DNA of 20,208 nucleotides from positions 1 to 20,208 of IMG/VR virus record IMGVR_UViG_3300037427_000570. One strand, given 5' to 3'. Position 1 is the first letter of the stretch, and every line of letters starts with the position of its first letter. The translations under genes were made by a program, and so were the position numbers. Origin of the DNA: a virus. Shown here in pieces: positions 5,596 to 20,208 of this stretch. A model generated the notes under the pieces. It did no database searches. It was not told the DNA's origin and saw only the letters and a program-made list of their open reading frames with translations.

Positions 5596-6975
5596 ATGTC
5601 TTATAAGCACATAGAAGATATTCAGAATATCTATGAAAATATTTCTGAACCTATCGATCAGAATCTCATAGATGAAGCAACTGCAGTTCTGATTGATTCT
5701 ATGCTTTCTCAAGGATTTTCTGAGAATGCAATTTTAGAATACGCAAGAAATGCTGATGTTAATGAATTAGTAGAAAGAATTTTAGATGCTTCTGAAGATT
5801 ATATTTTAGTAGAAGATATAACAGTTCCTTTATTATCAACTCTTAATGAAGATGTAGATCCTAATAATTATCTTCCTGAAGAACTTGAACTTTCAATTGA
5901 ACATACTCAATCTATAGAAAGATTACATGAGGGTGTAGGTAAACTTTTAGGAAGAGCTGCTCCATTCTTACAAAAGGTGGCATCTAAGGGAAAAAACCTT
6001 ATTAAGAGAGTTGCAGGTAAAGGTAATAAAGTTACTGGAGGAGTTGATAGTATAAAATCTGCTTCAAAAGCAGGTAAAGGTCAAAAAATCACTGGAGGAG
6101 TTGATAGTATAAAATCTGCTTCAAAAGCAGGTAAAGGTCAAAAAATTACTACTACTAAGGGTGTTCCATTAGATACCGCAGTTAAGGGGAAGAAAACTTT
6201 ATTTCAACGTGCTGGTGATACTGTTAAGAAAATTGCTAAGAATCCTTTAGCACAAGGTGCTGTAGGTGGTTTAGGTGTAATGGCAGGTATACCTCTAGCT
6301 GTTGGTACTGCTAAACTTGCTGGTAAAGCAGCTAAAGCAGTTGGTGGTGCTATTAAGACAGGTGTTGATAATGCTAAAACCTTTGTGAAAGGTGGTGCTG
6401 ATGCTGTTAAAGATAAGAATATCTCAAAGCAGGTAGATGATTATGTTGCGAAAAATAAAGGTGACAAACCAATAAGAAAGATTGATCCAACACCTTATAA
6501 TAAACCTAAGTCTAAAGTTGTACCAGGTAGTGAAAAAATAATACCTGCACGTCCAGCAAATGCTAGTGGTAAAGAGTTACCAAAAGCAAGAACAATTGGT
6601 CCTGATAAAGGACAGGTTAATCCTAATTCTGCTAGAGGCAAGATGATTGCACAGAATAAGGAAAGATTTGGTGGGGATAAAGTTGAGAAGTTAAGAGATA
6701 AAAATGCTGCTTTCCAAAAAGCCAAGAAGAAAGGAAGTGGATATAGTATGGATGATTTTGCAAAAGACTTCCCTAATTCTAATACAGCAAAGAAAAGAAA
6801 CAAAAGAAATAGGGTTACTTCTGTAATGGATATGGAATCCTATGATGCTTTTGATATCGTTAGCAATTATTTGTTTGAATCAAATCAAGTAGATAATATG
6901 GATGAGGCACTATATGTAATGAGTGAAATGGATGCTAAGACTATTCAGGATATTGTATCTCAGAATACAAAGTGA
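5596..6975 (+). CDS. Probable virion protein with acidic helical termini and a basic Gly/Ala core
   Basis: The 459-residue protein has no recognised enzymatic motif. Residues 1-115 are acidic and helical, with a block around SQGFSENAILEYARNADVNE. Residues 115-200 are Lys-rich and contain a perfect 19-residue tandem duplication (TGGVDSIKSASKAGKGQKI). Around 216-252 a Gly/Ala-rich hydrophobic segment (GAVGGLGVMAGIPLAVG) could be membrane-active. A basic linker follows. The last 40 residues (YDAFDIVSNYLFESNQVDN, then MDEALYVMSEM) resemble a short helical C-terminal module that I recall at the ends of several cyanomyovirus structural proteins. Late promoter at 5562; the next gene's GTG overlaps its stop by four bases. 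Likely co-made with the 930-aa and 94-aa proteins. Function beyond virion-associated is unknown. Confidence 0.8.
   Translation: MSYKHIEDIQNIYENISEPIDQNLIDEATAVLIDSMLSQGFSENAILEYARNADVNELVERILDASEDYILVEDITVPLLSTLNEDVDPNNYLPEELELSIEHTQSIERLHEGVGKLLGRAAPFLQKVASKGKNLIKRVAGKGNKVTGGVDSIKSASKAGKGQKITGGVDSIKSASKAGKGQKITTTKGVPLDTAVKGKKTLFQRAGDTVKKIAKNPLAQGAVGGLGVMAGIPLAVGTAKLAGKAAKAVGGAIKTGVDNAKTFVKGGADAVKDKNISKQVDDYVAKNKGDKPIRKIDPTPYNKPKSKVVPGSEKIIPARPANASGKELPKARTIGPDKGQVNPNSARGKMIAQNKERFGGDKVEKLRDKNAAFQKAKKKGSGYSMDDFAKDFPNSNTAKKRNKRNRVTSVMDMESYDAFDIVSNYLFESNQVDNMDEALYVMSEMDAKTIQDIVSQNTK
6034..6147 (+). repeat. Tandem 57-bp duplication inside the 459-aa gene
   Basis: Two adjacent 57-base copies (6034-6090 and 6091-6147) begin ACTGGAGGAGTTGATAG and differ only at the last base (C versus T). 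They duplicate 19 residues in frame. Near identity points to a recent event. Confidence 0.93.
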
Positions 6976-11637: not shown

Positions 11638-11649
11638 GTGTGCTATAAT
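11629..11649 (+). promoter_or_regulatory. Possible promoter elements before the 93-aa membrane protein
   Basis: CATAAATA (11629-11636, one mismatch to the late consensus) and a perfect TATAAT (11644-11649) lie 22-42 bases before the ATG at 11672. No convincing -35 precedes the TATAAT. A small inverted repeat, AGAAT/ATTCT, sits between TATAAT and the start. Confidence 0.35.
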
Positions 11650-11671
11650 ATAAGAATCCTTTAATTCTAAA

Positions 11672-12432: not shown

Positions 12433-12844
12433 AAAAGTATATGTTAATTTAACATTAACACTTGCATTACCCCTATTTGTTGTGGGTGGTGTTTTTAATG
12501 TTTATAGTGGATGGGAAAGGAGAGAATCTTCATCATCTGAAAGATTTCATAATATGATGGTTAATGGTTCTCATTCTCATAGAGAAGATGGAAGTATTTG
12601 TTATAGATTTCCTATGAAAGATACTAAATGGAATCAATGTGGACAACCAAGAGGTATGAGAGATCCATCTTATATGACTCCACAAGGTGCTATTGATAGA
12701 TTTCTTAGTCAATATTTTCTTCCTGTAAGAAAGTCGGTAGATACTTTTAAAGAACAAATGGTTCCTCGTTTTCATAATACATATATGGATATAGTTGGAC
12801 ATTGTTACGATAAAGAAAAACAAAGAAGGAAACATTGTGAGTGA
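12392..12844 (+). CDS. Membrane-anchored Cys-containing protein, unknown; start uncertain
   Basis: The frame is 150 residues from GTG 12392, or 145 from GTG 12407. Either start lies inside nfu, overlapping it by 41 or 26 bases. One N-terminal hydrophobic helix (about residues 18-39, VNLTLTLALPLFVVGGVFNV) is followed by a soluble domain with four Cys (ICYRF, NQCGQ, GHCYD, KHCE), fitting an exported or lumenal domain with disulfides, and by a helical segment around AIDRFLSQYFLPVRKSVDTF. No family recognised. Neither start has a strong ribosome site, so translation is probably coupled to nfu. Its 3' end overlaps the next gene's GTG by eight bases. Confidence 0.65.
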   Translation: MRYLIVLELFKSFKKVYVNLTLTLALPLFVVGGVFNVYSGWERRESSSSERFHNMMVNGSHSHREDGSICYRFPMKDTKWNQCGQPRGMRDPSYMTPQGAIDRFLSQYFLPVRKSVDTFKEQMVPRFHNTYMDIVGHCYDKEKQRRKHCE

Positions 12845-13022
12845 AGTTGTTCATAGCGTAAATATTATGATAGCTATACTTCTTGTAGGAGTATGTGTTA
12901 CAATATACTGGATATTTAAATACGATGATTGGAATTCTAACCCCGTTATACATAGTAACCTCCCCACTGAACGTGGGACAGATGATTCAGGAAGTAAGGA
13001 ATTGGGAATCAGAGAGGAATAG
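12837..13022 (+). CDS. 61-aa single-pass membrane peptide
   Basis: I place the start at GTG 12837, because AAGGA lies six bases upstream (GAAGGAAACATTGTG), and the frame from there is 61 residues; an in-frame ATG at 12795 has no ribosome site and lies deep in the previous gene. A helix at about residues 9-27 (NIMIAILLVGVCVTIYWIF) is followed by an acidic polar tail (TERGTDDSGSKELGIREE). Unknown function; an inner-membrane peptide by topology. Confidence 0.6.
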   Translation: MSEVVHSVNIMIAILLVGVCVTIYWIFKYDDWNSNPVIHSNLPTERGTDDSGSKELGIREE

Positions 13023-17573: not shown

Positions 17574-17610
17574 ATTTCGTAACCTAAAGGAAATTATTAA
17601 AATTTTATGG

Positions 17611-17616
17611 TATAAT
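17611..17616 (+). promoter_or_regulatory. Sigma70-type -10 box before the coiled-coil/talC pair
   Basis: A perfect TATAAT lies 24 bases before the ATG at 17641, in the divergent 102-base gap 17539-17640. No good TTGACA is found 16-18 bases upstream, so activity may need an activator or an extended -10. Confidence 0.5.
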
Positions 17617-17640
17617 ATATAATAAAAAATTTGGTAAAAA

Positions 17641-17896: not shown

Positions 17897-18544
17897 ATGA
17901 AAATTTTCTTAGATACTGCTGATACTACTGCTATTGAAAAAGCATATACTACAGGTATTATTGATGGTGTTACTACTAATCCAACTTTAATTAGAAAGAG
18001 TGGTAGAGATCCTGAAGAGGTATATCAACAACTAATTGATTATGGTATCAATGATATTAGTATGGAGGTAGTTGGTGATTATGGAATAATGTACGAGGAA
18101 GGTATTCGTCTTTCTCGTAAATTTGGTAAAGCATGTACTATTAAAGTTCCTTGTACTCCAGATGGTCTAAGAGTTTGTAGAGAACTATCCAGAGATCTTG
18201 TAAATGTAAATGTTACTTTGATCTTCTCTGCAGCACAGGCAATCCTTGCCGCTAAATCGGGAGCGAAGTATGTATCACCTTTCGTAGGAAGAGTTGATGA
18301 TAATTCTTTCGTTGGTATGGATCTTATAGAACAGATCTCTGACATCTATACTATTCAGAATGTTCATAAGACAGAAATCCTATCAGCATCTATTCGTGAT
18401 GTGAAGAGTGTATCTGATTCATTTGCTTCAGGTGCTCATGTAGTAACAATGCCACCATCAATCTTTGAGAAGATGTATAATCATGTTCTTACGGATAAAG
18501 GTTTGTATCTTTTTGATATGGACTGGGCACAAGTTAAGAGGTAA
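17897..18544 (+). CDS. talC: Transaldolase, TalC/fructose-6-phosphate aldolase type
   Basis: The 215-residue protein is the short form of transaldolase, moving a dihydroxyacetone unit between sugar phosphates in the pentose phosphate pathway. Visible signatures: FLDTAD at 4-9 (catalytic Asp), GVTTNPTLI at 24-32, the Schiff-base lysine K83 in TIKVPCTPDG, NVTLIFSAAQA at about 114-124 and VSPFVGRVDD at about 136-145. It is full length with no breaks. In cyanophages TalC is thought to steer carbon from the Calvin cycle toward NADPH and ribose for nucleotides, which fits the nrdAB genes at the other end of the window. It starts directly after the coiled-coil gene. Confidence 0.96.
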   Translation: MKIFLDTADTTAIEKAYTTGIIDGVTTNPTLIRKSGRDPEEVYQQLIDYGINDISMEVVGDYGIMYEEGIRLSRKFGKACTIKVPCTPDGLRVCRELSRDLVNVNVTLIFSAAQAILAAKSGAKYVSPFVGRVDDNSFVGMDLIEQISDIYTIQNVHKTEILSASIRDVKSVSDSFASGAHVVTMPPSIFEKMYNHVLTDKGLYLFDMDWAQVKR

Positions 18545-18554
18545 TAACCGACCC

Positions 18555-18589
18555 TTGACGTATAACGTAAACTTATGTTAATATAAATA
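18555..18589 (+). promoter_or_regulatory. Stacked sigma70-like and T4-late promoter for the porin-like gene
   Basis: TTGACG (18555-18560), an 18-base spacer and TAATAT (18579-18584) form a moderate sigma70-type promoter. TATAAATA (18582-18589), the exact late consensus, overlaps its -10. Both would start RNA at about 18591-18597 and leave a leader of about 115-120 bases, far longer than at the other late genes here. This suggests expression both early and late. Confidence 0.6.
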
Positions 18590-18638
18590 CATCATACAAA
18601 GGACTCGAAAGAATCGTAACCCTGCGTAGATGTAATAC

Positions 18639-18660
18639 AGTTTCCCATGTCGGGGAAACT
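18639..18660 (+). promoter_or_regulatory. Leader hairpin 1 upstream of porin-like gene
   Basis: AGTTTCCC, loop ATGTCG, GGGAAACT: an exact 8-bp stem in the 5' leader. The in-frame ATG at 18647 is in the loop and is not a likely start. No T-run follows it directly. Confidence 0.65.
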
Positions 18661-18666
18661 ATCATC

Positions 18667-18691
18667 CGCAAGGGATTTTTTAATTCTTGCG
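18667..18691 (+). promoter_or_regulatory. Leader hairpin 2 upstream of porin-like gene
   Basis: CGCAAG (18667-18672) pairs with CTTGCG (18686-18691), and GATT can extend the stem with AATT around a T-rich loop. The hairpin ends 18 bases before ATG 18710. With hairpin 1 it makes a compact structured leader that could stabilise the message or control its translation. Confidence 0.55.
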
Positions 18692-18709
18692 AGATACTTA
18701 AATACAATC

Positions 18710-19105
18710 ATGTCAATCAAATCAACAATCGCTGCTGTTGCAGCATCTCCTTTCCTTCTCGCTGGTGCAGCTTTTGCTGGTCCTTACGTGAATGTTGAAA
18801 GCAATCTCTCATATCCTGATGGAGACTACTCTGCTACTGGTACTGATATCCATCTTGGATTTGAAGGTACTGCTGGTGCGGAAGGTAAGATCGCTTACTA
18901 CGTTCAAGGTGGTCCTTCATTGAACCATGCTGATTCTACTGATGATACAGAGACAGAAATCTCTGGTAAGGTTGGTGCTTCTTATGGAGTTTCTGAAGAT
19001 CTAGGAATCTATGCAGAACTTTCTGGTGCTACTAACGGCGAAGACGCTGCTGGAGACACAGTTCGTGACTATGCTGCTAAGATCGGTGCTAAGTTCACAT
19101 TCTGA
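18710..19105 (+). CDS. Small porin-like outer-membrane beta-barrel protein
   Basis: The protein has 131 residues. A Sec signal peptide (MSIKSTIAAVAASPFLLAGA, cleavage AFA before GPYVNVE) precedes a mature chain of about 108 residues with alternating hydrophobic and polar strands (YVNVESNLSY, DIHLGFEG, AEGKIAYYVQGGPSL, TEISGKVGASYGV, LGIYAELSGA, YAAKIGAKFTF) and a C-terminal Phe, all typical of outer-membrane barrels. I recall similar porin-like proteins in cyanophages and picocyanobacteria. It is small for a pore (about six to eight strands). The start is ATG 18710; an upstream in-frame ATG (18647) lies in a hairpin and would spoil the signal peptide. Codon choice is somewhat richer in C-ending codons than in its neighbours, suggesting high expression or later acquisition. 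Confidence 0.82.
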   Translation: MSIKSTIAAVAASPFLLAGAAFAGPYVNVESNLSYPDGDYSATGTDIHLGFEGTAGAEGKIAYYVQGGPSLNHADSTDDTETEISGKVGASYGVSEDLGIYAELSGATNGEDAAGDTVRDYAAKIGAKFTF

Positions 19106-19131: not shown

Positions 19132-19169
19132 AGAAGAACTCTAAATAATAACGAGTTCGAGATGGATCA

Positions 19170-19199
19170 GACCTCCTACATTGTAGGGGGTCTTTTTTT
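19170..19199 (+). terminator. Intrinsic terminator after the porin-like gene
   Basis: GACCTCCTAC, loop ATT, GTAGGGGGTC form a 10-bp stem with one G-T wobble, followed by a run of seven T. This is the clearest rho-independent terminator in the window and separates the porin unit from amt. Confidence 0.93.
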
Positions 19200-19204
19200 A
19201 TGTC

Positions 19205-19220
19205 TGTATATCTTAATACA
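19205..19220 (+). promoter_or_regulatory. Perfect NtcA-type binding site upstream of amt
   Basis: TGTA, eight bases, TACA (19205-19220) is the full palindromic consensus (GTA-N8-TAC) for NtcA, the cyanobacterial nitrogen regulator that responds to 2-oxoglutarate. It begins six bases after the terminator's T-run. The nearest TATAAT starts 28 bases after the TAC, against the usual 20-24, so the geometry is slightly long. A second element, TGTA-N9-TACA (19246-19262), is off by one base. Confidence 0.62.
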
Positions 19221-19247
19221 ATTTGGTAGCAAAAAATACAAAAACTG

Positions 19248-19282
19248 TATAATACTGATACAAAAAAATAATGTGTTATAAT
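19248..19282 (+). promoter_or_regulatory. Two TATAAT boxes before amt
   Basis: Perfect TATAAT hexamers lie at 19248-19253 and 19277-19282. Neither has a good TTGACA at -35, as expected for activator-dependent promoters. The second is 25 bases before ATG 19308. Confidence 0.6.
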
Positions 19283-19307
19283 ATACTATAGTTTAAAAGG
19301 TATGTTT

Positions 19308-20208
19308 ATGACAGTATCCTCTCCTAGACGGAAGAATCGTCTTCAAGAGGCCAGTCTTATAGAAGGACCAATGCTCCTTCTACAAAATATCCGTGGGTTT
19401 AGATCGCATCGTTCTTTAATGTGGTTAGCCTGTGTTCCAATTGCTCTATTAGGTTTAGGTCTGTTTGACTTTGCTGCTCATGCAAATGAGTTACCAGCAG
19501 AACTTAATGCAGCATTTTTGGCAAACAATCTTTGGTTACTTGTAGCAACAATCCTAGTCATCTTTATGAATGCAGGATTCGCAATGGTAGAAGCAGGTAT
19601 GTGTAGGCAGAAGAATGCTGTCAATATCCTGTCTAAAAATTTATTTGTATTTGCTTTAGCAGTAACATCTTATTGGTTTGTCGGATATTCCTTAATGTAC
19701 GGTGATGCCGTAGCACAAGGATGGCTTTATTTCAATGGTTTATTTTTCGATCCAACTGTAACTCCAGAGTTAATTGGGGAAGGTGGATTAGTTCCAACAG
19801 TTGACTTCTTATTCCAAGCAGCATTTGCTGGAACAGCAGCAACTATTGTATCAGGTTTAGTGGCAGAGAGAGTTAAGTTTGGTGAGTTCGTTGTGTTCTC
19901 ATTAGTACTTACTGCATTCATCTATCCTATTGCTGGTAGTTGGCAGTGGAATGGTGGTTGGTTATCAGAAGCAGGGTTTATTGACTTTGCTGGTTCATCA
20001 ATTGTTCACTCTGTTGGTGCATGGGCAGGATTAGTGGGTGCATACTTACTTGGTCCTCGTATTGGTAAGTATGTTAATGGTAAAGCACAAGCAATGCCAG
20101 GACATAACATGGCAATTGCTACATTAGGTGCTCTTATTCTTTGGATTGGTTGGTATGGGTTTAACCCAGGTTCTCAACTGGCAATGGATCAGTGGGTTCC
20201 TTATGTTG
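19308..20208 (+). CDS. amt: Ammonium transporter, Amt family (cut at right edge)
   Basis: The first 300 residues of an Amt channel that conducts ammonium across the inner membrane. ATG 19308 is chosen because AAAAGG lies seven bases upstream; in-frame ATG 19302 is too close to it. Seen: a cytoplasmic-type basic start (SPRRKNRLQEASLIEG), an extra N-terminal hydrophobic segment at about 38-57 as in cyanobacterial Amt1, then TM segments with FMNAGFAMVEAGMCRQKN at 86-103, TAATIVSGLVAERVKFGEF at 176-194, IDFAGSSIVH with D226 and H234 (equivalents of AmtB D160 and the first pore His H168), GLVGAYLLGPR and ILWIGWYGFNPGSQ. The second pore His lies beyond the window. No frame break is seen. It is a host-derived gene by all appearances, with its own NtcA-type promoter region. 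Confidence 0.95.
   Translation, partial: MTVSSPRRKNRLQEASLIEGPMLLLQNIRGFRSHRSLMWLACVPIALLGLGLFDFAAHANELPAELNAAFLANNLWLLVATILVIFMNAGFAMVEAGMCRQKNAVNILSKNLFVFALAVTSYWFVGYSLMYGDAVAQGWLYFNGLFFDPTVTPELIGEGGLVPTVDFLFQAAFAGTAATIVSGLVAERVKFGEFVVFSLVLTAFIYPIAGSWQWNGGWLSEAGFIDFAGSSIVHSVGAWAGLVGAYLLGPRIGKYVNGKAQAMPGHNMAIATLGALILWIGWYGFNPGSQLAMDQWVPYV

Follow-up and report, generated by a model that had tools for sequence, protein, structure and literature searches.

A conserved candidate NtcA site and an extended -10 promoter precede an ammonium transporter gene in a P-SSM2-like cyanophage

Results

The amt locus

The window, that is the whole stretch of DNA analysed here, comprises 20,208 nt of the record IMGVR_UViG_3300037427_000570. 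It shares 84% DNA identity with P-SSM2 across 35% of its length and is a fragment of a P-SSM2-like (Salacisavirus) cyanomyovirus, a virus of Prochlorococcus. Near the end of the window the order of genes is talC, an outer-membrane-protein (OMP) gene and amt, all on the plus strand. The transaldolase gene talC (17,897–18,544; PF00923) is syntenic with talC of P-SSM2, and the two proteins are 93% identical. The next gene (18,710–19,105; PF24653, E = 2e-39; DUF680 / Phage_OMP) codes for an outer-membrane beta-barrel protein and belongs to the group annotated as DUF680 in isolates. The ammonium transporter gene amt (19,302–20,208; PF00909, E = 2e-68) is truncated at the window end, and its homologues in relatives are complete ORFs of 485–491 aa. 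Since the first ATG is missing in four relatives (L006–L009), the second ATG, at 19,308, is probably the conserved start.

An intrinsic terminator (19,169–19,200, plus strand), consisting of an 11-pair stem (19,169–19,193) and a T-run, separates the OMP gene from amt, and a T-run terminator is present at the equivalent place in the aligned clade relatives. On the 3′ side of amt a hairpin with T-run was seen in L002–L009; this side of the window copy lies beyond the window end.

In P-SSM2 talC is followed by a 2OG oxygenase gene, two OMP genes and pstS, and in AG-345-F15 and AG-345-E02 pstS directly follows the OMP gene. Three relatives (L002, L004, L005) have the order OMP gene, amt, pstS, with amt immediately 5′ of pstS. 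Compared to the order without amt in P-SSM2 and the AG-345 genomes, amt thus appears to have been inserted into a phosphate cassette. Between talC and the OMP genes, the window (17,897–18,710, compared with P-SSM2 188,017–188,592) lacks the 2OG-Fe(II) oxygenase gene of P-SSM2.

Origin and selection of the phage Amt

Cyanobacteria prefer ammonium to other nitrogen sources. In a tree based on the first 302 residues, the ten phage Amt sequences for which upstream DNA was available (window, L002–L009, L013) form one clade (100/99) nested within Prochlorococcus. Its origin is in low-light Prochlorococcus. Values of dN/dS among the members are about 0.03–0.1, which indicates purifying selection and thus maintenance of the phage Amt protein, at a synonymous divergence of 0.29–0.57 across the clade. 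With its host origin, its intact form in relatives and the purifying selection acting on it, amt has the attributes of a cyanophage auxiliary metabolic gene. No amt was found among the cyanophage records of the phage collection searched. A second, distant phage Amt lineage (L011, L012, L014) is about 70% identical; its amt promoter is of the sigma-70 type (TTGAC[AG]-N17-TARAAT) and has no NtcA box.

Two GTA-N8-TAC motifs upstream of amt

The gap in front of amt contains two GTA-N8-TAC motifs; two or more were obtained in 0.3% of dinucleotide shuffles of the 101-base gap. The first, box 1 (TGTATATCTTAATACA; 19,205–19,220, core at 19,206–19,219), is an exact TGTA-N8-TACA palindrome. The initial annotation of this DNA had proposed it as an NtcA box between the terminator and two TATAAT hexamers, had estimated its chance occurrence in a 200-base gap at roughly 1%, and had considered the 28 bases to the first TATAAT as the weak point. 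Palindrome, position and spacing are indeed as described, and the estimate is close to the shuffled sequences, in which an exact 8-base match appeared in 2.0% (101-base gap) or 1.0% (196-base gap). Over the whole window, two exact matches were observed versus 0.46 expected. The other one (TGTATCTCAGAATACA; 6,954–6,969) falls in the final part of an ORF, shortly upstream of the following one.

Retention of box 1 in related phage amt promoters, on which its proposed role depended, was not borne out beyond the nearest relatives by alignment of the gap: it is exact in four of the ten clade promoters, namely in the window and in L002, L003 and L004, which all stem from one metagenome. L005 and L013 carry TTTGCAAATGTTAATAC at this position. 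When scored with the matrix of host NtcA sites described below, box 1 reached −5.6/+0.6 bits, a poor fit. We consider box 1 weak evidence for NtcA control, since about 2% of shuffles match, it is kept only in the three nearest relatives and it scores poorly as an NtcA site. A role of box 1 as the ancestral site was rejected, as relatives have no box at the homologous positions.

The second motif, box 2 (GGTAGCAAAAAATACA; 19,225–19,240, GTA-N8-TAC at 19,226–19,239), had been missed initially and is a candidate NtcA site. Despite the synonymous divergence of 0.29–0.57 within the clade, its equivalent is exact in nine of the ten promoters (window, L002–L006, L008, L009, L013), and L007 has lost the box region. 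In six promoters of the window type the GTA/TAC positions of box 2 are invariant (6/6, versus 54/80 in the rest of the gap); this comparison separates the two boxes only weakly, because box 1 keeps 5/6 positions in the same promoters, and it is the wider set of relatives that does separate them. Part of the conservation may result from recent common descent: in the alignment of the gap, only 4 of 104 columns distinguish the window from L002.

Resemblance to host NtcA sites

The comparison drew on a sample of 24 genomes from likely relatives of the host. Host glnA promoters have a box, which reads GTATCAAnnnnTAC on the opposite strand, 22–23 bases before TAN3T. An NtcA matrix was built from glnA and urtA sites of the host, with no amt site included; it holds ten distinct sites, and its scores are therefore rough. 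Among the 26 host promoters listed, the matrix recovers the amt1 box in 25. In the gap of the window, box 2 receives the highest score (7.4 bits, p = 0.022), and the amt boxes of relatives reach 9–13 bits, with p values of 0–0.012 in L013, L005, L008 and L009. The score alone is not decisive, since box 2 is outscored by several unrelated positions within coding sequence of the window.

Box 2 is similar in sequence to the glnA and amt1 boxes of the host. Like the phage gene, host Prochlorococcus amt1 is preceded by a box of the GTA[TAG]CAA...TAC type, about 80–130 bases before the gene, and the host Amt is up to about 92% identical to the phage protein. The flanks of the host box, however, have no evident similarity to the phage promoter, which in the window has an additional extended -10 and no canonical -10. 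We therefore rejected the view that a whole host amt promoter was copied by the phage; the resemblance is limited to the box. In marine Synechococcus WH7803 amt1 is increased about 46-fold under nitrogen starvation (PMC9430850).

An extended -10 promoter of the phage

Both TATAAT hexamers named in the initial annotation are present. TATAAT1 (19,248–19,253, plus strand) is conserved among the nearest relatives only, being replaced in L006, L008, L009 and in the small-ORF module described below. It was rejected as an extended -10, since the TG in front of it is displaced by one base. TATAAT2 (19,277–19,282) is part of an extended -10 promoter, TGTTATAAT (19,274–19,282, plus strand), with a weak -35-like CTGATA 16 bases further 5′, rather than of a bare -10. 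A conserved TGATAC hexamer (19,256–19,261, plus strand) is shared with the intergenic gap upstream of gene 247 in P-SSM2.

TGN-TAYAAT precedes amt in every clade member, and L007, which has no NtcA box, has kept the counterpart of TATAAT2, TGCTACAAT. The form TGNTATAAT is found elsewhere in the window at 11,641 and 17,608. In a 35-kb segment of P-SSM2, five of nine TGNTATAAT copies are intergenic, 12–33 bases before a gene, versus an intergenic share of 5.6% (binomial 6e-5). As this form is used across the phage, missing -35 elements reflect a habit of the phage rather than dependence on an activator, and the initial view of an activator-type promoter fails for TATAAT2, the counterpart of which is the sole promoter left in L007. 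Survival of the extended -10 in this box-less relative makes basal, NtcA-independent transcription of amt probable. For the same reason, the earlier statement that restricts the rise in uptake to nitrogen-poor cells is too strong. The promoter-like sequence TGTG/TATG-N-TA[TC]AATATA has three further copies in the window (11,641–11,652, 12,896–12,907 and 17,608–17,619).

Spacing in relatives and a small-ORF module

In canonical NtcA promoters the centre of the box lies near −41.5, in combination with a TAN3T -10 (PMC3898017), and one study searched for GTAN8TACN21TAN3T (PMC2758279). In the window, no TAN3T -10 is found at the canonical 20–24 bases from either box: the distances are 28 bases for box 1, and 8 (TATAAT1) and 37 bases (TATAAT2) for box 2. 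L008 has TGTAACAATAACTACA followed after 22 bases by TATAAT, and L006 has the identical layout with TATACT. The same layout, GTAACAACAAATAC, 22 bases, TATAAT, precedes a small ORF in five cyanophage contigs (L109, 5,986–6,180; L110, about 12,840–12,961, minus strand; L119, 4,992–5,190; also L115 and L116), with near-identical promoters. L110 matches cyanomyoviruses. Regarding class II NtcA promoters, the window thus has the GTA-N8-TAC motif, and box 2 alone has the resemblance to host sites; the class II spacing is lacking in the window and is 22 bases in L006, L008 and the small-ORF module.

The small ORF codes for a predicted membrane protein starting with ELLILAAAIGGAAFGAFKLTPRDKD, for which no Pfam match was obtained. 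A shorter small ORF of similar type was read from the sequence between box and amt in L006 and L008. In blast searches against isolated phages the amt promoter and the small-ORF module gave chance-level matches or none.

Discussion

A model for amt control

We lean towards the view that the gap from 19,201 to 19,301 is an amt control region with a basal extended -10 promoter that is probably stimulated by host NtcA via box 2. The sequences, their conservation, their likeness to host boxes, the synteny and the purifying selection are observed, and NtcA binding, the direction of regulation and the start sites are predicted. The gene would form a self-contained unit with basal transcription from the extended -10 of the phage (19,274–19,282). 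Host NtcA charged with 2-oxoglutarate would probably bind to box 2, not to box 1, and would increase amt transcription in infected cells that lack nitrogen. The ancestral form was probably a class II NtcA promoter (GTA-N8-TAC, 22 bases, TATAAT), as still present in relatives. In the lineage of the window the -10 at 22 bases would have decayed, leaving box 2 about 56 bases 5′ of the start expected for the extended -10, so that any activation by NtcA would need to be weak or of a class I-like kind. As L007 has an intact amt without any box, NtcA control is dispensable. What stands of the initial proposal is NtcA-type control in front of a phage amt, supported for the family by box 2 (nine of ten promoters, 7.4 bits) instead of box 1; such control is reasonable for the promoter family and uncertain for the window genome.

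It is rather doubtful, yet worth considering, that NtcA control was lost in the window lineage, with the extended -10 (19,274–19,282) being constitutive and the boxes being relics or chance matches. The extended -10 is the promoter form of the phage and is present as TGN-TAYAAT before amt throughout the clade, the window no longer has the canonical -10 at 22 bases, L007 has the extended -10 only, and amt of L011, L012 and L014 has a box-less sigma-70 promoter. A loss is harder to reconcile with the invariance of GTA/TAC of box 2 in the window-type promoters compared to the rest of the gap, and with the high scores of box 2 in L005 and L013, which have nearly the spacing of the window.

Repression or gating of TATAAT1 by NtcA at box 2 appears very improbable. 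The box ends 8 bases before this hexamer and covers its -35 to -20 region, and NtcA represses some promoters from other box positions (PMC3898017), but TATAAT1 is absent in L006, L008 and L009, all of which keep the box, and host glnA and the sister phage promoters show an activating layout. Activation of TATAAT1 from box 1 (19,205–19,220), as originally suggested, is very improbable: the exact palindrome, with a 2% chance in the gap, and its retention in L002–L004 speak for it, but the box is missing in six of ten clade promoters and fits the host matrix poorly, the spacing is 4–8 bases too long and TATAAT1 is not conserved beyond the nearest relatives.

Relation to other predicted NtcA promoters of phages

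NtcA promoters of T4-like cyanophages were already predicted in 2010 together with a 2-oxoglutarate model (Sullivan et al. 2010, PMC3037559). That study likewise reported intergenic GTA-N8-TAC motifs in cyanomyoviruses, 1–16 per genome, and proposed the link to 2-oxoglutarate, but its predictions were made on single genomes and do not mention amt, whereas we tested conservation, resemblance to host sites and spacing in relatives for one nitrogen-uptake gene. A T4-like cyanophage scaffold with focA-nirA (Gazitua et al., PMC8115048) also combines a host-derived nitrogen-uptake gene with two predicted upstream NtcA sites; the gene is a different one, for transport of nitrite and not of ammonium. 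In the same study, viral amtB genes are accompanied by glnK and originate from Bacteroidetes or Gammaproteobacteria. In the literature searched, an NtcA box in front of a cyanophage amt was not found. The phage amt promoter adds a new case to the NtcA boxes already predicted in cyanophages. As far as we found, control of phage nutrient genes by host regulators has been tested for phosphate (PhoB), and for nitrogen it rests on predicted NtcA boxes. The amt promoter family offers a testable case, with NtcA layouts that are canonical (L008), drifted (window) or absent (L007).

The neighbouring phosphate cassette

In L002 and L004 pstS is preceded by TAAG-N7-TAAG, the inverted Pho-box consensus. 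P-SSM2 has CTTAACCTTCTCTTA before gene 247, with an extended -10 that is 23 bases downstream as counted on the sequence. P-SSM2 pstS is reported to be controlled by host PhoBR in work cited in PMC10976474, so that the use of a host stress regulator by a phage gene has a precedent at this genome position; the same paper found prediction of phage Pho boxes from sequence to be unreliable unless backed by binding data. The gene 247-pstS cassette of P-SSM2 and the amt unit share the genome place after talC and the OMP gene as well as the succession of terminator, regulator box, extended -10 and nutrient-uptake gene. They differ in that P-SSM2 has a Pho box (CTTAACCTTCTCTTA) and not an NtcA box, takes up phosphate and not ammonium, and is reported, in the work cited there, to be controlled on the basis of experiments.

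Tentatively, P-SSM2-like phages of low-light Prochlorococcus might carry adjacent amt (NtcA box) and pstS (Pho box) genes, as in L002 and L004. If true, one phage locus would read the stress signals of its host for nitrogen as well as for phosphorus.

The pstS gap of L427, L428 and L004 contains, just past the terminator, a perfect 14-base palindrome, GTATCTTAAGATAC, which overlaps TAAG-N7-TAAG. As it is of the GTA-N8-TAC form, matches to this motif alone are no proof of NtcA control. The window and the gene 247-pstS cassette of P-SSM2 also have a TGATACA core in common.
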